Source: Nitrososphaeraceae archaeon (lineage in GTDB: Archaea > Thermoproteota > Nitrososphaeria > Nitrososphaerales > Nitrososphaeraceae). Taken from it: 64,000 nucleotides of DNA. A program made the position numbers and the translations under genes. The DNA lies in assembly GCA_031316115.1 (NCBI GenBank), contig JALDRC010000004.1:62001-126000 (forward strand), given 5' to 3'. Under the pieces are notes generated by a model. That model ran no database searches and was not told the DNA's origin. It saw only the letters and a program-made list of their open reading frames with translations. Shown in pieces: positions 9,901 to 21,423 of this stretch (position 1 is the first letter of the stretch; every line of letters starts with the position of its first letter).

Positions 9901-11073
9901 TTAATTGCAAACATAGTTTGCCCGAAAATGAACATTTCCGCTATCACTAACATAGAGATATCCTTTTGGATCGATAGTTATATCATGAGGAATCAAGAAT
10001 TGGTCATCCTTGCATCCTAGTATTCCCCATTTAGATAGAAAATCCCCATCATTTGAAAATTTTTGTATTCTCACATTACGAGTATCTATTACATAAACAT
10101 CTCCAGAGTTATCAATTGCTATGCCATGATCTTCAATAAATTGACCATTTTGACCTCCCTTGGATCCCCACATCCCAAGAAACTTTCCATTATTATCAAA
10201 TTTTTCTACTCTAGAGTTTTCTCTGCCATCTGTGACATAGACATTATCCTTTGAATCTAAAGAGACATCATGAATGTGAACAAATTCTCCTGGTTTGGAG
10301 CCATATGATCCCCATTTAGTAATAAATTTTCCATTATTATCAAATTTTTGAATAACAGGATTTTCTTGATCTCCTACGTAGATATTACCATGGGAATCAA
10401 CACCTATTCCCCATGGTTTCATAAACTGTCCTGTTTTTGTACCTTTTGAACCCCACATCGAGATAAATGTACCATTCTGATCAAATTTTTGAACATGACC
10501 TGTCACATAATCGACTACAAATATATTATCTTTTTTATCTATTGCAATATCTTCTGGCTGGAAGAACTCGCCTTCTCCGTCGCCCATTTTACCAAATTTC
10601 AGGAGGAAGTTACCATTCTGATCAAATTTTTGAATATTACAAAGTATTGCATCACTGACATAGATATTTCCTTTTGAATCAGATGCTATTCCATGTGGAT
10701 GTAAAAATTCCCCTTTTTTTATACCTTTTATTCCCCAACTATCAATCAACTTTCCACTCATATCATATTTTTTAATATGATGGAAATTCATTAAATCATT
10801 GGATTGCTTACTTTCTTTAACATAATTATTATCACCCAGAACGTCTGCAGTGAATGTAAAAAACTCATTATCCTTTGTGGGTTGATTATATTCTTTAATA
10901 TTAGCAACTATTTCATTCACTAATTCAGAATCCTTGCAATTTTGTACTTTATTTAATTTTTGTTGAACATCTCCATAGACAAAAAGATATGGATTGATAT
11001 TATTAAACAAATATAAAAAAATAATGAAAAAAATGAAAATTACGTTTCTATTAGAAATATAAATAGTGATCAT
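9901..11073 (-). CDS. Secreted NHL-repeat beta-propeller protein
   Basis: 390 residues. An N-terminal hydrophobic signal (about 8-28) is followed by a linker and six NHL repeats with the pattern hGIxxDxxGNhYVxDxxxxxhQKFDxxGxFxxxWG, beginning near LHPHGIASDSKGNIYVSDA. The repeats form one six-bladed propeller outside the membrane. NHL propellers bind proteins, nucleic acids or sugars; here no ligand can be named. The last blade stops after YLYVSDSGNV and ends in an unusual short tail (HFRANYVCN), so the gene may have lost its final strand by a 3' frameshift. No operon partner. Confidence 0.85.
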   Translation of the reverse strand: MITIYISNRNVIFIFFIIFLYLFNNINPYLFVYGDVQQKLNKVQNCKDSELVNEIVANIKEYNQPTKDNEFFTFTADVLGDNNYVKESKQSNDLMNFHHIKKYDMSGKLIDSWGIKGIKKGEFLHPHGIASDSKGNIYVSDAILCNIQKFDQNGNFLLKFGKMGDGEGEFFQPEDIAIDKKDNIFVVDYVTGHVQKFDQNGTFISMWGSKGTKTGQFMKPWGIGVDSHGNIYVGDQENPVIQKFDNNGKFITKWGSYGSKPGEFVHIHDVSLDSKDNVYVTDGRENSRVEKFDNNGKFLGMWGSKGGQNGQFIEDHGIAIDNSGDVYVIDTRNVRIQKFSNDGDFLSKWGILGCKDDQFLIPHDITIDPKGYLYVSDSGNVHFRANYVCN

Positions 11074-11655: not shown

Positions 11656-14115
11656 TTAATCTGAAACTTTTTTATCCTCTGTCGGAATCCATACAAGAGA
11701 AATTAATTTAACCGAAATATCTTTCTTTGCTAACCTGACAGTTATCGTTTCTAAATCTTCGAAACTATTTCTTATTTTATGATCCAAGGCAGCAATCTCT
11801 TCCTTAAACTCATTTTCTAAATCTATTAACTGGTGTTGAAATAAATCTCTTTTTCGAATGGCCTTCTGGATATCCTTCTTTTCTTTAGTAGTCTTTGCTA
11901 ATCTTCTCATTACGCTTGAAGAGTTGTTTCTAGAATATCTAGAAACCTTTCTTCCTAAAAATGCACCTATTAATGTGCCGCCTATTGAAATCGCTGTGTT
12001 AATATTTTGTTGATTGGATTGTTCTTGTTGTATTTCGACATCATATTGAGCTCTTTGAATCTTTTCTTGAATATTGCGTATTTTTGAAGAATATTTTTGT
12101 CTTAGTTTCTCAACGGTATTGTCTCTATTTTCTCTTATTAATGTTCTAATTCTATTTCTAAAATCACTTTCAGACTCTCCAAGCTTTGAAATTTCTTTCA
12201 AATCCTTAATTTTATACAGGCTAAGTTTTTGATTTTTATATAACCAATCAATAAAATCCTTTTCCCATCTATCATATTTTTCTGCTTTTGATGCGATCAA
12301 AGGCAATTCAGTGAAATTAGAACCTTCAGATTTTTTTTGAAGGTTTTTTAAATTTATATCTATTTCTTTGGAACTTGTCCAATCAACAGAGATCGGTTCA
12401 TTAGTAATTGGCGTTATAACCTGTAGTTCCATTGTAGTATCTATTCCCAATTTGGAATCGACGAAATTCAGCGATGCTACTCCGATTATTTCTGGTCTAT
12501 AATAAAATTTACTTTGTTTATTTATTCCCAGACTCTCAACAGGTATAAAATATTGAATAATTGGAGGAGGAAGTGTAGGTTGAGTTCTTGTAAGTTTAAG
12601 TTCATTATTACTTGAAATTTGATGAATATTATTTAGGGTTTTAGAAACAGTCTCTTTTATTTCTGTTTTCTTACCATTAATAGAGAATTCAGGTAATAAT
12701 TTTATATCCTTTATTAGTTCTTTAATTTGATTTCTTGTAATAGGTCCTCGTAAATAGGATAATGCCCACCTGGTCTGAAAGATTTCTAAACCGTCTTCAT
12801 GTGTATTACTCATAACAAAAACTCTGTTTTCTAGACCAGAAATTATTTGGTCTATTTTTTGCCTATTGAAATCTTTTGTACTATTTTGCGATGATCCTTC
12901 TAAACCATCTAATACTCGTGCTTTGTCTCTCTCTGTTTGCAATCGACCAATAAACCAAGTTCCTATGTTAGACAACCCTTTGTAGTCTAGGTCTACCGGA
13001 TTTTGTGTAGCTAAAACTAAACCTAATCCAAAAGCCCTCGCTTGTTTTAATAGGGTCAATAATGGTTGCTTAGATGGAGGATTTGCTACAGGCGGCAAAT
13101 ATCCAAAAATCTCATCCATGTATAAGATAGTTCTAAGGCTGGTAGTACCAGATTGTGTTCTCATCCATGATAAAATCTGATTTAAAAGTAGCGTTACAAA
13201 GAACATACGTTCATTATCATTTAGATGAGCTGTGTAGAAAATTGAGACATTTGGTTTACCATTCTTATCGTATAACAATTTTCCAATATCAAAATCTACT
13301 CCTTCAATCCATGATGAAAAACTAGGAGATGCTACTAGATTATTCAATGACATTACAAGTTTGAATCTATCTTTAGCTGGAAAAAAAGATTCAATATCCA
13401 AAACCCCTACTTTCTTCATTGGTGGATTTTGAATGGCATTTATTAAACTTGTTAGATCAAGATCCTTACCCTCTTTCCATAATGTTTCCAGTATAGTAGA
13501 TATAAGAATATGTTCTCTATCCTCTAATGGATTTGCTTGTATTCCTGCTAGGGTTAGTAAACTATTTACAGTATTTGATATCCTTTCTCTGAATAATTCA
13601 GAGTCTTCTAAAACCTCCTTGGACGGCACCGAAAACGACTTTACGATTGAGATAGGAATTCCTGCATTGCTACCAGGAGTGTATATGATAAAATTTGCTG
13701 AATTTCGTAGATCTTGAATACGTGCTTCTGGCTGCTCCCACTCAATTAATCCATTTTTCCATGTTTCCGCTTGATTTCTCGCGTATTCTTCTAATGAAAT
13801 TCCTTTTTTAGCTGCCTCTTGTTCATTTATCCATGGTAAGAAATTTTCTCCAGTTAATTGCTGAAAGTTGAGTAATAAATTAGGAATATCTCCTTTTGGA
13901 TCGATTATTATTAATGGAATGTCATCTATGATAGCTTCTTCGAGTAATACGGTGCATAGTCCTGTTTTTCCACTTCCAGTCATACCTAAACAAACAGCAT
14001 GAGTAAGTAAATCTCTAGAATCATACAAAACTAGTGATTCTTCTCTTGTTCTTGAATGTACGTTATACTTTTTACCTAGATAAAAAATGCCTAATTTTTC
14101 ATAATCTTCAATCAT
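11656..14115 (-). CDS. HerA/FtsK-type ATPase with C-terminal coiled coil
   Basis: 819 residues. Walker A is GMTGSGKT at 44-51. IIIDPKGD near 70 is the usual second strand motif of HerA (DUF87) ATPases. Walker B is ILYMDE ending at Asp334-Glu335, followed by the sensor region LVLATQNPVDLDYK. The C-terminal third differs from DNA-end-processing HerA. A basic coiled coil (about 640-690) and a Gly-zipper segment (NTAISIGGTLIGAFLGRK) are followed by a second coiled coil (KEKKDIQKAIRKRDLF). The ATPase should form a hexameric pump, but the cargo is unknown. No NurA nuclease lies nearby, which argues against the classical DNA-repair role. The nearest same-strand genes are the Psp genes, 670 bases upstream. 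Confidence 0.85.
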   Translation of the reverse strand: MIEDYEKLGIFYLGKKYNVHSRTREESLVLYDSRDLLTHAVCLGMTGSGKTGLCTVLLEEAIIDDIPLIIIDPKGDIPNLLLNFQQLTGENFLPWINEQEAAKKGISLEEYARNQAETWKNGLIEWEQPEARIQDLRNSANFIIYTPGSNAGIPISIVKSFSVPSKEVLEDSELFRERISNTVNSLLTLAGIQANPLEDREHILISTILETLWKEGKDLDLTSLINAIQNPPMKKVGVLDIESFFPAKDRFKLVMSLNNLVASPSFSSWIEGVDFDIGKLLYDKNGKPNVSIFYTAHLNDNERMFFVTLLLNQILSWMRTQSGTTSLRTILYMDEIFGYLPPVANPPSKQPLLTLLKQARAFGLGLVLATQNPVDLDYKGLSNIGTWFIGRLQTERDKARVLDGLEGSSQNSTKDFNRQKIDQIISGLENRVFVMSNTHEDGLEIFQTRWALSYLRGPITRNQIKELIKDIKLLPEFSINGKKTEIKETVSKTLNNIHQISSNNELKLTRTQPTLPPPIIQYFIPVESLGINKQSKFYYRPEIIGVASLNFVDSKLGIDTTMELQVITPITNEPISVDWTSSKEIDINLKNLQKKSEGSNFTELPLIASKAEKYDRWEKDFIDWLYKNQKLSLYKIKDLKEISKLGESESDFRNRIRTLIRENRDNTVEKLRQKYSSKIRNIQEKIQRAQYDVEIQQEQSNQQNINTAISIGGTLIGAFLGRKVSRYSRNNSSSVMRRLAKTTKEKKDIQKAIRKRDLFQHQLIDLENEFKEEIAALDHKIRNSFEDLETITVRLAKKDISVKLISLVWIPTEDKKVSD

Positions 14116-14785
14116 AAATCCAAAGAGTAAATAAAAGAATACTAAATATATTATATAGCTAACTTTTCCAATAATTTCCTGTTGAAATGTTTTAAGTGGT
14201 GAATAGACTTTGATTATGCTCTGTTTATAGTTCTGAATATTCGATGATTTACCTCTTGTATAACTACTTATTCAATTCAAGAAATCAATCCAAATCTTGA
14301 TAGATAATGTATAAAATAAAATAGTATTTTACTGATAAATATCTTAAATAGAACGCCGTATAACAAGACAAATGAAGTAGCAAAAATATACTGTAACTTT
14401 TCATTTCTCATGTGAAAGTACACAGTTTTGCAAATTCAAAAACCACCTTGTAAAGATATTTCACACCTACTATCGATCGTATAATAATCTGGTAAAGGCC
14501 TAGATAACGTAAAAGTAATTTGTTGCATTCAACAAAGGGTATGTATTAATACAATAATAATTAATTAAAGTATGTCTAATTATTAAATTTTTATGTTCAA
14601 TTAGAAATACAGTTAATCAGAGGAAAAATTTATTCTTATCCATTTATCAATTCTGATTGTAAGTTTCAAGATTAATTTCCAGACAAGCAATTAATTCAAT
14701 ACATAGATATATTAAAACAATATAGTAAATCCTTAGAAATTATATAATTATATCATATATCATCATATATAGCGAATATTGGCAT
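14116..14785. other. Intergenic region upstream of the HerA-like gene
   Basis: AT-rich with no supportable gene; it should hold the promoter of the HerA-like gene at its left end. Confidence 0.45.
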
Positions 14786-15493
14786 TTACAAATGGTTAAA
14801 GGGTATATTCCAAATAGGGTACCATTGAGATAAGTCCTTTTCGAATGGTATATCATTTGAAATTTCTTCCATTATTTTTACCTCCATATTATTATCTCGC
14901 TTTCTTTTATCATCTATTTTTGGAATTGCTGGAACAAATGGATAAAAATTATCTCTTTTGTAATTATATATAAGATACTGATACTTATTTTGATCCGTAA
15001 GTGCAAAAGTAGGATCATCATATGAACTTTTATTTGTATATCCACTTGTATATTCAAACACAGCAGCAAGTATTTGTCGAGAAAATCCCTTCTCATGTAC
15101 AGTATCTCCAATTGCATTAATTCCTGTTAAAAGATCTTCGATACTATTTCCTTTCAGGATAAACCAAAGATAATTATATTCATCTAACAAAGATTCAAAA
15201 GAAAATGATATTCTATTTTCGTTTTTTTTGTCTGATGCTATTCCTAAAAAATTTTCAATATACTTTTTCATTTCATGAAATGATTGAACACTCACATCCT
15301 TTACGCAAATTCCGCACCTTCCAGTAGATTTCATTCCTAATTCACTTTCCAATTTTCTCGAGGCTACAGATAATGAAGATATAGCTTCACTATCTATATA
15401 TGGATTGGTTAATGTGACGTCTGGAGAACCATATTTTGATGTCCGTTCTTTTGATCCTTCAAAAAATTGCCTAATCTTTTTAAAAAAATTCAT
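14786..15493 (-). CDS. pspAB: PspA-associated protein PspAB
   Basis: 235 residues matching my knowledge of the PspAB family, soluble partners of PspA in actinobacteria and archaea. Visible family marks are the early SLSVASRKLESELGM region, the central CGICVKDV, a long alpha/beta middle, and the closing phrase DLSQWYPIWNIPFNHL, whose WYP-W core is typical of the family end. Its biochemical role is unknown; in other organisms it sits in psp operons. It is 110 bases downstream of a 132-residue gene on the same strand and 2.1 kb from pspAA, a loose cluster that is not one operon. Confidence 0.75.
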   Translation of the reverse strand: MNFFKKIRQFFEGSKERTSKYGSPDVTLTNPYIDSEAISSLSVASRKLESELGMKSTGRCGICVKDVSVQSFHEMKKYIENFLGIASDKKNENRISFSFESLLDEYNYLWFILKGNSIEDLLTGINAIGDTVHEKGFSRQILAAVFEYTSGYTNKSSYDDPTFALTDQNKYQYLIYNYKRDNFYPFVPAIPKIDDKRKRDNNMEVKIMEEISNDIPFEKDLSQWYPIWNIPFNHL

Positions 15494-15603
15494 GTAATAT
15501 AGTTTTGATTGGTCATATCTGAATTTATCGCTTTAATAGTAATAGAATTATATATATGGAGAATGATTATGTTTGCATCTAATAAAAAAAAATATTAAAT
15601 AAT

Positions 15604-16002
15604 TTATACTTGTTTATTCGAACGATATAGATCTCTCATTGCAATAAACAATTCTTCTTTATCTATTCCATCCGCTGTATTAATTTGAGTATTTTGTTTT
15701 ATATTATCAAGCACTAAGTTAGTCAATTGATCAAGTTTATCTATGTCTTTAATCCCCGTAACCTCTGATAATTTTTTTACAATGTCATATCGATCAAGAT
15801 TTTCTTGATTTGAAGTAAATTGTTTTTTTTCCTCCTCGTTAAATTGTTCTGTAATATTTCTAGGAAGTGATTGTAAAATATTTGAAGCATTTTGTGGGGT
15901 AGATTTTTGAAGAAACATCTTGGTTACAGCTCCTGTAGCCATACTTGCAAGACGGGGATCTATGCCAAAGGATTTTGCTATCATTCCAACCATACTTTCC
16001 AT
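15604..16002 (-). CDS. Conserved-looking 132-residue protein beside pspAB
   Basis: Soluble, mostly helical protein. The first 40 residues (MIAKSFGIDPRLASMATGAV) resemble the start of DUF2780/DUF937-type small helical proteins, but the match is only by eye. The second half is polar (IKDIDKLDQLTNLVLDN). It lies 110 bases upstream of pspAB on the same strand, close enough for one transcript. The role may be linked to membrane stress by position alone. It is divergent from the Pro-rich repeat protein at 16371. Confidence 0.55.
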   Translation of the reverse strand: MESMVGMIAKSFGIDPRLASMATGAVTKMFLQKSTPQNASNILQSLPRNITEQFNEEEKKQFTSNQENLDRYDIVKKLSEVTGIKDIDKLDQLTNLVLDNIKQNTQINTADGIDKEELFIAMRDLYRSNKQV

Positions 16003-16370
16003 AATTTATTTAGTTAGTAAAGAAGTTAATAAAGATTCTTAATTGATTTTGGGAAATATAATTTCAATTACTATAAGCAGGCTAAAATCCGTATAAATTA
16101 ACAATTCCCATTCAATAACAGAGACTGATATGAGGTATTAATTTCTACAGTAAAAACTACCAGATATGTTACCCCTTAAGTGAGAATTTTCAAAAATAAA
16201 TATTCTTCTCTCTTTTGTTGAATCTTCAATACTAGAAGATTTTTTGTTTTAAATTTGATTTATATAAAAATACCTCAGCATTCCATTAGTTTTAGTACTC
16301 TGTAATTTGAACAAATTGGATAGTAGAACAATAAGTTAATAATGGTAATAGCATGATCAGGATTATATAA
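16003..16370. other. Divergent promoter region
   Basis: Shared upstream region of the 132-residue gene (leftward) and the Pro-rich repeat gene (rightward). AT-rich; no gene seen and no clear operator. Confidence 0.5.
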
Positions 16371-16823
16371 GTGTCAATATCTTCATCAAAACGTATATTA
16401 TTAGTAGCAATTTTAAGTATCCTATTCATTTCCATAATATTTATTGTTATTATTTTTACAGCAAGGGATGCGCCTTATATTAGCTATGATCCTGTTCCAT
16501 CTCCGTATCCAATAACGACGCCCTATCCAATTCCTATACCAACACCATCTCCATATCAGTTTCCATTTCCGGGACCATTTGGAGGAGATTATGATTTGGA
16601 ATATCCACCATTTGAAGACCAACCTCTCATACCAGAAAGAGATCTTCGATCACTTGATTCTCCTTTTTCAGGTGACTTTCCACCATTTGAAGACCAACCT
16701 CTCATACCAGAAAGAGATCTTCGATCACTTGATTCTCCCTTTTCAGGTGACTTTCCACCATTTGAAGACCAACCTCTCATACCAGAAAGAGATCTAAGAT
16801 TCACAGATGGATTATATGACTAG
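16371..16823 (+). CDS. Membrane-anchored Pro-rich protein with 25-residue repeats
   Basis: 150 residues from a GTG start. One membrane helix at about 9-30 is followed by a Pro/Tyr-rich stalk (PSPYPITTPYPIPIPTPSPY) and almost three copies of a 25-residue repeat, PPFEDQPLIPERDLRSLDSP followed by FSGDF. The repeats are nearly identical at DNA level. The protein is probably fixed in the membrane with the acidic repeats outside. No catalytic domain is present. It lies between pspAB and pspAA on the opposite strand and is followed after 55 bases by a small membrane protein gene. Confidence 0.65.
   Translation: MSISSSKRILLVAILSILFISIIFIVIIFTARDAPYISYDPVPSPYPITTPYPIPIPTPSPYQFPFPGPFGGDYDLEYPPFEDQPLIPERDLRSLDSPFSGDFPPFEDQPLIPERDLRSLDSPFSGDFPPFEDQPLIPERDLRFTDGLYD
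16605..16798 (+). repeat. 75-bp tandem repeat, about 2.6 copies
   Basis: Copies start at 16605, 16680 and 16755, each opening CCACCATTTGAAGACCAACC. The unit is 25 codons, so copy-number change would keep the frame. The copies differ at very few bases, which suggests recent duplication. Confidence 0.85.
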
Positions 16824-16878
16824 TAAACCCAAAAAAAAAAGATTTTATATATAGCCTAGCTCAAACCAAATATATGCA

Positions 16879-17052
16879 ATGGGAATAAAACTTACTCTTC
16901 AAGATTATGTTATAATAATAGTTTTGATTGTTGCTGCAGCAATAATAATAAAGCTGTTTAGTTCATTTATAATTATATTAATTATAGGATTGGTAGGATT
17001 TTTTATATATAAAATGTATGTTGAAAAGAAAAAAGTGAATAACCGTATATAG
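16879..17052 (+). CDS. 57-residue membrane protein
   Basis: ATG at 16879 begins MGIKLTLQDYVIIIVLIVAA; stop TAG at 17050-17052. Two hydrophobic helices (about 9-24 and 29-48) form a hairpin, with a basic tail (EKKKVNNRI). It starts 55 bases after the Pro-rich repeat gene on the same strand and faces pspAA. The hydrophobic pattern and clean frame make it credible. Function unknown; small hairpin proteins often accompany membrane-stress genes. Confidence 0.6.
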   Translation: MGIKLTLQDYVIIIVLIVAAAIIIKLFSSFIIILIIGLVGFFIYKMYVEKKKVNNRI

Positions 17053-17603
17053 TTTTGTAAATATTAACGAGGGTGAAAGATTCATTCAACAATCCTTATT
17101 TGTACGATTTCTAAGTTCAAAAGAATACAGATAACATGGTTTTTACCTACAGCAGGTTCAACTTCATTGATTGAAATCTTTTACACCTTCCAGTTCTGAT
17201 AGGTAGTATGAGAAATAAAATCAGAAACGAAATTTAACTCGAGAAAGAATAATATAATATGCAGTAAATTAGAGATCTTTAGTATCTTATAGACTGAAAG
17301 TCGTATAGTCTATAAATAGATATCAACTAGACAAAATTTAATAGAAAAAAGGGAGAACACATAATAAATATTGAAATTAATTTTAGAAAAAAGATTTGGC
17401 TACAGCCATTTGATTCATAAAAAGCTTAGCGAATTATCGTATTAAAACGAAATATAAAAAATCAACAAAAATCAAGGAAACAAAAAGGACATAGTTTGAA
17501 CGGTCATATAAAAGCAAATAATAACAATAATTTTTTATTAAACGACGTGAACATTATCTTATTGGAATATAACTAAACGAGATATGAAAATAAAAAATTT
17601 CTA
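17053..17603. other. Intergenic region between convergent genes
   Basis: AT-rich, with no supportable gene. It separates the small membrane-protein gene from pspAA. Confidence 0.45.
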
Positions 17604-17933
17604 TTAGTTATCTTTGATTAAACCTTCTCCAGCAAAGATTTTTTTGAGGTCATTTAGTGATATATCTAAGTCTGGTACTATGATATCTGATTCCATTATT
17701 TCAGTGTGTCCTATTTTTTGACCTTTAGAAGTCACAATGTCATTCATTTTTTGAATACTATCATAGATTTCTTTTAGCTCTTCACTGTCATCATCTTCAC
17801 TAAAGCTTTGGATTTTTTTAACAAGATCTACAATTTTATTATCAATTTCGTTTAGTTGTTCAATAGCTTGAGGATCAACTCTAAACTGACCATAAGTCAT
17901 TATTCTAACGATTTTTTCTTGATTAGCAGACAT
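17604..17933 (-). CDS. pspAA: PspA-associated protein PspAA
   Basis: 109 residues. The start IVRIMTYGQFRVDPQAIEQL matches the conserved opening of PspAA (IVRI...GQ.RV.......LN.LD), and the end PDLDISLNDLKKIFAGEGLI matches the family close. PspAA is a small soluble partner that binds PspA/IM30 coiled coils in actinobacterial and archaeal psp operons. It starts 22 bases after the pspA stop, so the two are clearly one operon. An acidic loop (EDDDSEELKE) sits in the middle. Its exact action is not known. Confidence 0.85.
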   Translation of the reverse strand: MSANQEKIVRIMTYGQFRVDPQAIEQLNEIDNKIVDLVKKIQSFSEDDDSEELKEIYDSIQKMNDIVTSKGQKIGHTEIMESDIIVPDLDISLNDLKKIFAGEGLIKDN

Positions 17934-17955
17934 TTGTACATGTTTACTCCTTATA

Positions 17956-18663
17956 TTAAGAGAGTTCTGATTTCAATTTTGCTAATTCTTCATCTACTGC
18001 ACTATTTAATGATACTTTTTTTAGTTCCTTTTCAATATCTGTGTCTTGGGGTTCATAAGTCTTAGTATAATCAGTCAGGATTCCCGAATCCAACATCTCA
18101 TCAAGAGCTTCCGCTTTTGCTTGCATTTTATCCGTTTTTTCCTCTACCCTACTAAGAATCATTCCTACGTCTCCCATTTCTTCAGAAATTCCAGATATAT
18201 TTTCTTTAATTCGTACTTGAGCTTCAGCTGCCGAATACTTTGCTTTCATCGTCTCTTTTTTGACTTTAAATTCTTCAATTTTTGAATTCAGACGTCTTTC
18301 TGCATCTTCTAATTTGACTTGATCCTTTTCTATCCCCTCTATTTGTTTATCTAATTCTTTTACCTGTAAACTTATTACACTCTTTCTTTCTAATGCCAAC
18401 CTTGCTAAATCCTCTCTATTTGCTTTTAATGACCTACGGGCCTGATCCTCAAGAGTTGTTACATTTGCTAAAAGTTTCGCTCTTTGCATTTCTATTCTTT
18501 TCTTTGAAGTAATAACTTGGCTAATGTCTCGTCTTAATTTGTTTATTAACTCGTGTTGTTTTTCAAAAGAATAGTTCAACATTTCTTCTGGATCTTCAAA
18601 TTTTTCTGCTACACTGTGTGCCTTTGCTTTAAAGATCGACATTATTCTTTCTAATAATCCCAT
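17956..18663 (-). CDS. pspA: PspA/IM30/Vipp1-family membrane-stress protein
   Basis: 235 residues, the usual family length. The N-terminal amphipathic helix (MGLLERIMSIFKAKAHSVAE) binds lipid. The conserved EDPEEMLNY motif follows, then a long coiled coil (about 30-185) with the family's LAR.AL-like section (EDLARLALERK). ESCRT-III-like PspA proteins form oligomers on damaged membranes and keep up the proton gradient. pspAA follows after 22 bases. The start ATG at 18663 fits the amphipathic helix exactly. Confidence 0.92.
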   Translation of the reverse strand: MGLLERIMSIFKAKAHSVAEKFEDPEEMLNYSFEKQHELINKLRRDISQVITSKKRIEMQRAKLLANVTTLEDQARRSLKANREDLARLALERKSVISLQVKELDKQIEGIEKDQVKLEDAERRLNSKIEEFKVKKETMKAKYSAAEAQVRIKENISGISEEMGDVGMILSRVEEKTDKMQAKAEALDEMLDSGILTDYTKTYEPQDTDIEKELKKVSLNSAVDEELAKLKSELS

Positions 18664-18728
18664 TTTGAATATTGATAATTTGTTTAAATGATATTAAAGT
18701 GTATTTGTTGTTGTGACTATCTTAATAG

Positions 18729-18863
18729 TTATGTAAATTCACCAATAATTGATTTTAATTTATTTATCATTTGCTCATCTGAATCTCTTTTTATGATTTC
18801 TGTGAAAATCTGTGTTGGTTGATAACTATAATGGGTCCTAAAAAAAGAAAAATCAAATAGCAA
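18729..18863 (-). CDS. Possible small protein upstream of pspA
   Basis: A clean frame from TTG (18863) to TAA (18729) reads LLFDFSFFRTHYSYQPTQIF then ends SDEQMINKLKSIIGEFT, 44 residues. It ends 66 bases before pspA on the same strand, so it could be the first gene of the psp transcript or the 3' remnant of a lost gene. The composition is protein-like. No family recognised and no ATG start. Confidence 0.35.
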   Translation of the reverse strand: MLFDFSFFRTHYSYQPTQIFTEIIKRDSDEQMINKLKSIIGEFT

Positions 18864-19084: not shown

Positions 19085-19549
19085 TTGTTTGATATAAAAA
19101 TTCCTCTTCATGGATTTGTTTTTATAAAATGTATGGATAAAAAGATAAATATTATTGGATCTATGGTAAAAATATTGAATCATACTATTATAGTCCTACT
19201 GTCTTCAATGCTATTTCTTTTCACAGGCTATTTTGTTTTTGCACAACAGTATGGTACATACCAAAGTGAAAATTTTGAAATATCAAATTTGAGCGCTATT
19301 TACAAGGGAAAATATATAGAAGACAAATATCAGATACTGGGAATAGTTAAAAACATAGGAAATGATACTTCTAGCGAAATAATTTTGATAGGTACTATTT
19401 TTGACAAAAACAACAATCTAATTGGAGTTTATAGAACAATCCCAATTTTGGACATTAGTAAACATGGAAATGATTCTCCATTTCGATTTGATATCTTTAC
19501 AAATAAGAGTTTGTTTGATCATTTCAACATAGAAATCGGCGGAAAATAA
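19085..19549 (+). CDS. Secreted FxLYD-like protein
   Basis: 154 codons; the real start is probably the ATG at 19133 (MDKKINIIGS) or 19163 (MVKILNHTII), because the export signal lies there (TIIVLLSSMLFLFTGYFVFA, then QQYGTYQSE). The mature part is one beta-sandwich: NLSAIYKGKYIEDKYQILGI, VKNIGND, and IILIGTIFDKNNNLIG. That is the order of the FxLYD/DUF3426-type extracellular domain. Likely a cell-surface adaptor. A decayed relative lies at 37212. No operon partner. Confidence 0.65.
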   Translation: MFDIKIPLHGFVFIKCMDKKINIIGSMVKILNHTIIVLLSSMLFLFTGYFVFAQQYGTYQSENFEISNLSAIYKGKYIEDKYQILGIVKNIGNDTSSEIILIGTIFDKNNNLIGVYRTIPILDISKHGNDSPFRFDIFTNKSLFDHFNIEIGGK

Positions 19550-20511: not shown

Positions 20512-21423
20512 TTGTTGTTAATTTTATGTACTGGTTCGATTGTTAACAACCAAGCTTTAGGTCAACTAGTGATTGATAATGAGGTATTATCATCTGACAA
20601 TAGTGGAGATCCCTCTATCACAAATAAAGTTAAATCAATTCCTCAAGTTCATGTTACTATCCAGGGAACGGAATTACCTGATAAACTGAAAGGTGGAGAT
20701 GGAAATGATAATCTGATTGGAAATGATGGAAACGATATACTACAGGGTAATGAAGGAGATGATAAAATAGAAGGAGAGGATGGAGAAGATGTACTGATAG
20801 GAGGAACCGGAGATGATAAGATCAAAGGTGGAGATGATGATGACGATATAGATGGTGGAGATGGAGAAGATGATCTAAATGGTGGTAAAGGTAATGATGA
20901 GATCAAAGGTGGAGATGATGATGACGATATAGATGGTGGAGATGGAGACGACAAAATCAAGGGTGGTAAAGGTAATGATGAGATCAAAGGTGGAGATGAT
21001 GATGACGATATAGATGGTGGAGATGGAGACGACAAAATCAAGGGTGAAGATGGTGACGACACTCTCAATGGGAATGAAGGAGATGACAAGATAGATGGCG
21101 GAGATGGAAATGATGTATTGAATGGAAATGAGGGGAGTGATGTACTTAAGGGAGGACCAGGTGCAGATAAATTCGTATGTGACATAGAAGATAAAATTAT
21201 AGATTACAATTCTTTAGAAAATGATAGAATTTTGGGGCAATGTAAGTATGAAGATAAAGGAACGATAGAACCCAAACCTATTCTTAAGAAAGAAATTCCG
21301 AAATCCATTCCATCTAAGCCTGTTTTCGAAAAAAATAGATTGTTTCCAAGTTCTCCACCCCAACAAGAGGATAAGGATATCTTTAAATACTCTATTTCAA
21401 AACTGAGACAATTATTTGAGTAA
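20512..21423 (+). CDS. Secreted RTX-like calcium-binding repeat protein
   Basis: 303 codons from a TTG start that opens directly into a signal peptide (LLLILCTGSIVNNQALGQ); no upstream ATG is available. Residues 55-215 are a run of about 17 nine-residue repeats of the form GGDGDDxhx, such as GGKGNDEIKGGDDDDDIDG. These fold as calcium-filled beta-rolls outside the cell. After GGPGADKFVCD comes a Cys pair (CDIEDK...LGQCK) and a Pro/Lys-rich tail. RTX repeats are common in secreted bacterial proteins; a short, enzyme-free version suggests an adhesion or matrix role. Confidence 0.8.
   Translation: MLLILCTGSIVNNQALGQLVIDNEVLSSDNSGDPSITNKVKSIPQVHVTIQGTELPDKLKGGDGNDNLIGNDGNDILQGNEGDDKIEGEDGEDVLIGGTGDDKIKGGDDDDDIDGGDGEDDLNGGKGNDEIKGGDDDDDIDGGDGDDKIKGGKGNDEIKGGDDDDDIDGGDGDDKIKGEDGDDTLNGNEGDDKIDGGDGNDVLNGNEGSDVLKGGPGADKFVCDIEDKIIDYNSLENDRILGQCKYEDKGTIEPKPILKKEIPKSIPSKPVFEKNRLFPSSPPQQEDKDIFKYSISKLRQLFE
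20826..21060 (+). repeat. Tandem repeats inside the RTX-like gene
   Basis: The segment GGTGGAGATGATGATGACGA followed by TATAGATGGTGGAGATGGAG occurs three times, at about 20826, 20910 and 20991, as part of a longer duplicated unit. Near-identity shows recent in-frame expansion. Confidence 0.7.

Follow-up and report, generated by a model that had tools for sequence, protein, structure and literature searches.

The window, i.e., the whole stretch of 64,000 nucleotides analysed here, is part of contig C15 in a genome of 3.16 Mb. All seven open reading frames described in the initial annotation were confirmed at their positions. They are listed below together with the gene of a predicted secreted protein, which was not mentioned there:

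11656-14115, minus strand: bacterial-type ATPase of the HerA/FtsK superfamily, 819 residues; DUF87, 28.9 bits (cut-off 23.2)
14786-15493, minus strand: pspAB; Pfam PF22742, E=1.5e-46; convergent with pspA-pspAA in relatives
15604-16002, minus strand: 132-residue helical protein; remote resemblance to DUF2780/DUF2267; linked to psp genes in no other genome
16371-16823, plus strand: p150, a 150-residue, single-pass, Pro-rich repeat protein (EDQPLIPERDLRSLDSPF); one N-terminal hydrophobic segment; 75-bp repeats
16879-17052, plus strand: p57, a 57-residue, two-helix membrane hairpin; two hydrophobic segments; psp-linked in close relatives
17604-17933, minus strand: pspAA; Pfam PF22743, E=6.1e-22; follows pspA in relatives
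17956-18663, minus strand: pspA (PspA/IM30, ESCRT-III-like membrane remodeller); Pfam PF04012 PspA_IM30, E=5.2e-29
19085-19549, plus strand: predicted secreted protein; divergent from pspA; a 65% identical relative adjoins pspA in genome G011

The identities of pspA, pspAA and pspAB stand, with Pfam matches well over cut-off. The location of pspA and pspAA in one operon, previously taken as observed, is plausible because pspAA adjoins pspA with a gap of only 22 bp. Remodelling or sealing of damaged membrane is established for the PspA family. PspA was detected in 18 of the 41 relatives, PspAB likewise in 18, and the two co-occur (Fisher p=4e-7). The commonest psp layout in these genomes is a pspA-pspAA pair convergent with pspAB; an M48 peptidase gene of a single family is present on nine of their psp contigs. 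The layout matches the PspA-PspAA/metallopeptidase-PspAB arrangement given in the main text of Ravi et al. (2024, mSystems, PMC11237479) and, accordingly, the psp core of the window is of an already known type. As in the systems covered there, PspA, PspAA and PspAB are all clustered in the window. The M48 gene is located beside pspAB also in relatives from the same family, but the window genome has its M48 gene elsewhere, on contig C17, and no metallopeptidase gene adjoins the psp locus within the window. The adjacent membrane metallopeptidase is an accompanying feature of PspA-PspAA-PspAB systems and is absent from some members. The additions in the window cluster are p57, p150 and the secreted protein; a term search of the main text of Ravi et al. 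(2024) retrieved none of these as partners.

Two other small genes were observed at psp loci of relatives. Eight contigs share, upstream of pspA or pspAA, the gene of a membrane protein of about 100 residues that is different from p57 and p150; its copy at L106:9754-10071 is without a Pfam match. In three relatives, a dodecin gene separates the hairpin gene from pspAB (L094:4066-4281; L095:9775-10041; and L096:1510-1725, the last with a Pfam E of 2.4e-22); it is absent from this place in the window.

The earlier description of two membrane proteins encoded on the opposite strand also holds: p150 combines one hydrophobic segment with Pro-rich repeats, and p57 possesses two such segments. Neither protein gave anything over cut-off in Pfam or the other profile libraries searched. 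The 25-residue repeats of p150 are near-identical (DNA unit of 75 bp, 99% matches), and a related motif is present in one to three copies in p150 relatives. Since positive residues precede the hydrophobic segment, the repeats probably face outwards. The p150 gene is psp-linked in five genomes with differing gene orders. Namely, its homologs are divergent from pspAB in G001, G002 and G004, while the one in G011 is divergent from pspA, with one gene between. The contig of G005 stops at pspAB, and this genome is excluded from the count. Weak matches in the Nitrosopumilaceae-like family f9 (E 1e-5 to 1e-3) were not relied on because their coverage is largely limited to the hydrophobic and Pro-rich part.

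The hairpin gene p57 lies within or close to the psp cluster in six genomes representing three genera. In G001, G002, G005 and G011, its homologs are part of the psp cluster. In the first three genomes they follow pspAA, between pspAA and pspAB; in G011, the p57 relative stands beside the Pro-rich gene close to pspA, and the p150-p57 pair is divergent from pspA. In G006, some 0.8 kb separate the p57 relative from the M48 gene, and 1.7 kb separate it from pspAB. Six more genomes (G008, G014, G016, G020, G021 and G023) have p57 relatives away from psp loci, so the link is not universal; the homology itself is soft, since p57 is short and hydrophobic. One of the unlinked hairpin genes (L285, in G020) is near a band-7/prohibitin-like gene, the latter recognised by eye only.

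Both p57 and p150 are thus psp neighbours in close relatives of the window genome. Their order and orientation vary while membership in the cluster is kept, which argues for a functional tie. All genomes with this linkage belong to one family and mostly to one genus, and among such close kin part of it may be inherited synteny. Several of the relatives are fragmented metagenome-assembled genomes, and in G002 and G005 further linkage may extend past the contig ends. The gene of the secreted protein was found beside pspA in two genomes only, those of the window and G011. Its listed start codon is TTG, and the true start may be downstream. This protein is a possible member of the psp module.

Also, the window contains at 20512-21423 (plus strand) a gene for an RTX calcium-binding nonapeptide-repeat protein, here in an archaeon (HemolysinCabind, E=2.4e-40, eight stretches), with tandem DNA repeats of 81 bp. 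The gene at 9901-11073 (minus strand), downstream of the ATPase, encodes a beta-propeller protein with NHL repeats and a signal-like N-terminus.

The 132-residue gene is present near pspAB, as had been noted. The encoded protein has no match over cut-off in Pfam (DUF2267, 14.2 bits vs 29.8) or in the other profile libraries searched, and the DUF2780/DUF2267 similarity among its relatives reaches at best 17.7 bits, which is below threshold. The structural model is helical (pLDDT 73), and a fold search returned nothing significant (best E=0.74). Assignment to DUF2780/DUF2267 was rejected on these grounds. Close homologs were found in G002 and G004 (two in each), G011 and G018, apart from psp genes and the ATPase. 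All 5 genomes that encode the protein also have PspAB (p=0.011 across the 41 genomes; p=0.14 inside the family), a pattern that shared ancestry can account for. At the psp locus, the 132-residue protein is a bystander.

The ATPase was correctly recognised as a HerA/FtsK-type enzyme with a coiled coil. It belongs to the HerA/FtsK superfamily (DUF87) by its DUF87 match, HerA-type fold and Walker motifs; Walker A (GMTGSGKT) is invariant, as is the DE of Walker B (ILYMDE). In the AlphaFold2 model (mean pLDDT 81.6, pTM 0.58), the C-terminal part has two long helices (residues 649-719 and 733-783) on either side of a Gly-containing stretch. HerA translocases came first in a Foldseek search (e.g., PDB 4d2i and 9x1m; best E=1.5e-14), and the best 50 matches were all HerA translocases except one DndH domain. 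Query-normalised TM-scores are low (0.26-0.35) because only the ATPase core aligns. Thus, the predicted core fold and DUF87 are shared with HerA-type translocases, but the window ATPase differs by its extra C-terminal coiled coil, the lack of a HAS-barrel match in the Pfam scan and a low equivalog score. The NCBIfam equivalog of HerA proper, the partner helicase of NurA, gave 22.6 bits against the 970 required. The Pfam scan yielded DUF87/TrwB/HerA_C-type matches only and no MIT or AAA+ domain; the libraries searched yielded no name for this ATPase family. A nucleic-acid motor is its natural reading, and protein substrates are also possible. The gene is probably transcribed separately, given its distance of 670 bp from pspAB and the presence of ctatataatat, a TATA-like box, some 40 bp upstream of the start codon. 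Two other candidate roles were rejected. As to defence, PADLOC matches to HerA/mad8 were partial and low-scoring, and the commonest neighbour families included no defence family. As to a gene of plasmids or phages, the former gave a single partial match and the latter none.

A neighbourhood survey revealed no conserved linkage of the ATPase or the 132-residue protein with psp genes in relatives, the outcome named beforehand in the initial annotation as speaking against its proposal. The ATPase is beside psp genes in no relative and is missing from every psp contig of the relatives examined; in G002, G005, G010 and G019 it sits among unrelated genes. A class-wide search gave strong ATPase matches in 19 of 300 genomes, partial and more distant relatives included. 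Of the 12 Nitrososphaeria genomes with the close ATPase family, nine are without PspA (G010, G019, G209 with a fragment only, G277 and five f9-family genomes), and only the window genome, G002 and G005 are PspA-positive. The control for the PspA search was positive in 9 of 14 control genomes. The ATPase, in turn, is absent from 15 of the 18 PspA-positive relatives, and the two proteins show no association over the 41 relatives (Fisher p=0.64).

A pattern scan recovered a sample of at least 80 loci of this ATPase family, mostly bacterial, from many bacterial phyla and with 42-59% identity. Archaeal profiles, which may miss divergent bacterial PspA, detected no PspA, PspAA or PspAB in the available flanking sequence, at most 10 kb, around 86 loci. 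PspA was also not among the families listed by Pfam scans for 122 immediate ATPase neighbours, and these neighbours included no recurring nuclease partner. Only 16 of 40 ATPase-bearing bacterial genomes have PspA over cut-off. The ATPase is probably an accidental neighbour of the psp genes in the window and most likely works alone as an independent nucleic-acid motor. Several other genes were seen near members of the family. DUF4332 helix-hairpin-helix-type genes occur in f9 archaea (L207, L208, L209 and L211) and at two bacterial loci (L132 and L155), and a dodecin-like gene, recognised by eye, adjoins the ATPase in L207, L210 and L211. DUF2780 genes lie directly beside the ATPase at L131:5638-6033, L133:3356-3736 and L175:7642-8097, in three orientations; these loci are from Chloroflexota, Ignavibacteriota and a proteobacterium.

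The ATPase tree was inferred by a quick method and midpoint-rooted for drawing. In this tree, the Nitrososphaeraceae-like ATPases form one clade grouped with those of Anaerolineae-type Chloroflexota (SH-aLRT 95), and the f9 ATPases group with those of Ignavibacteriota and KSB1 (support 99). The ATPase was probably acquired from bacteria, with a Chloroflexota-like donor most likely for the Nitrososphaeraceae-like enzyme. The tree suggests two separate bacterial-to-archaeal transfers; the AU test does not reject one archaeal clade (p=0.44), which leaves one or two transfers.

Taken as a whole, the locus is in our view likely a Psp cluster of known type to which small membrane proteins are linked and at which the ATPase is a bystander. 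The broader module proposed earlier is retained in part: p57 and p150 stay with the psp genes in several relatives, but elsewhere neither the ATPase nor the 132-residue protein is linked to these genes. The role initially suggested for the ATPase, taking PspA filaments apart in the way Vps4 acts on ESCRT-III (here with the 132-residue protein cast as adaptor), could draw on the adjacency of the ATPase and psp genes on one strand in the window genome, on a coiled coil that could bind PspA helices and on reports of AAA+ ATPase genes close to pspA in some bacteria (PMC11237479). The resemblance to Vps4/CdvC is that of an ATP-driven motor gene beside an ESCRT-III-superfamily gene, in the window genome alone; the window ATPase is of another class, without an MIT domain and with no conserved genomic or phyletic tie to PspA. 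Linkage in zero relatives, the many archaea that have the ATPase and lack PspA or the reverse, and a HerA fold with neither an MIT nor an AAA+ match leave a Vps4-like role without support. In view of occurrence and linkage, we reject the ATPase as a PspA disaggregase and assign this explanation almost no probability. A somewhat larger, still small chance is given to a separate pair of the ATPase and a small DUF2780-like protein, placed beside psp by chance, with the 132-residue gene as a diverged version. True DUF2780 genes do adjoin the ATPase in three bacterial phyla and three orientations, these being the only DUF2780 genes in 1.4 Mb of ATPase flanks, and the 132-residue family has sub-threshold DUF2780/DUF2267 similarity. 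DUF2780 proteins may be genuine partners of this ATPase family. However, such pairs are seen at just 3 of 82 ATPase loci. In no other archaeon does the 132-residue gene adjoin the ATPase, the profile of its protein retrieves none of the bacterial DUF2780 genes, and pspAB separates the two genes in the window.

The module may, on the other hand, consist of PspA, PspAA and PspAB only, with p57 and p150 as passengers carried along by inherited synteny. The unlinked p57 relatives in six genomes and the restriction of the linkage to one family, mostly one genus, speak for this explanation. We regard it as unlikely, since order and orientation differ among G011, the window and the group of G001, G002 and G005, yet the genes remain clustered. 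Following the preferred interpretation, a known-type cluster with linked small membrane proteins, p57 and p150 are most likely lineage-specific additions in this Nitrososphaeraceae-like branch. PspA would polymerise where the membrane is damaged, on its inner face, assisted by PspAA and PspAB as soluble partners. The hairpin protein p57 could serve as a membrane dock or anchor for the psp set, and p150 as an outward stress sensor or spacer; the specific assignment of p57 as anchor and p150 as sensor is tentative. Jointly, the two might fill the job of the enterobacterial PspB and PspC, which are likewise small membrane proteins encoded with pspA. They would be unrelated to PspB/PspC: p57 and p150 are without a domain match in Pfam, and the supposed resemblance is one of role only. 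The ATPase and the 132-residue protein would remain outside the psp module. That p57 and p150, perhaps with the secreted protein, constitute an unreported archaeal PspA sensing and docking unit, which replaces PspB/PspC in one Nitrososphaeraceae-like branch, is an idea we put forward with some reserve.

These results remove a false lead, the Vps4-like motor for PspA, and the ATPase family emerges as a HerA-like motor of its own, widespread in bacteria. Little is known about the Psp partners of archaea, and the true neighbours, p57 and p150, can now be told apart from the chance ATPase. These two proteins make up a brief, testable set of candidates for membrane-damage sensing in these archaea.
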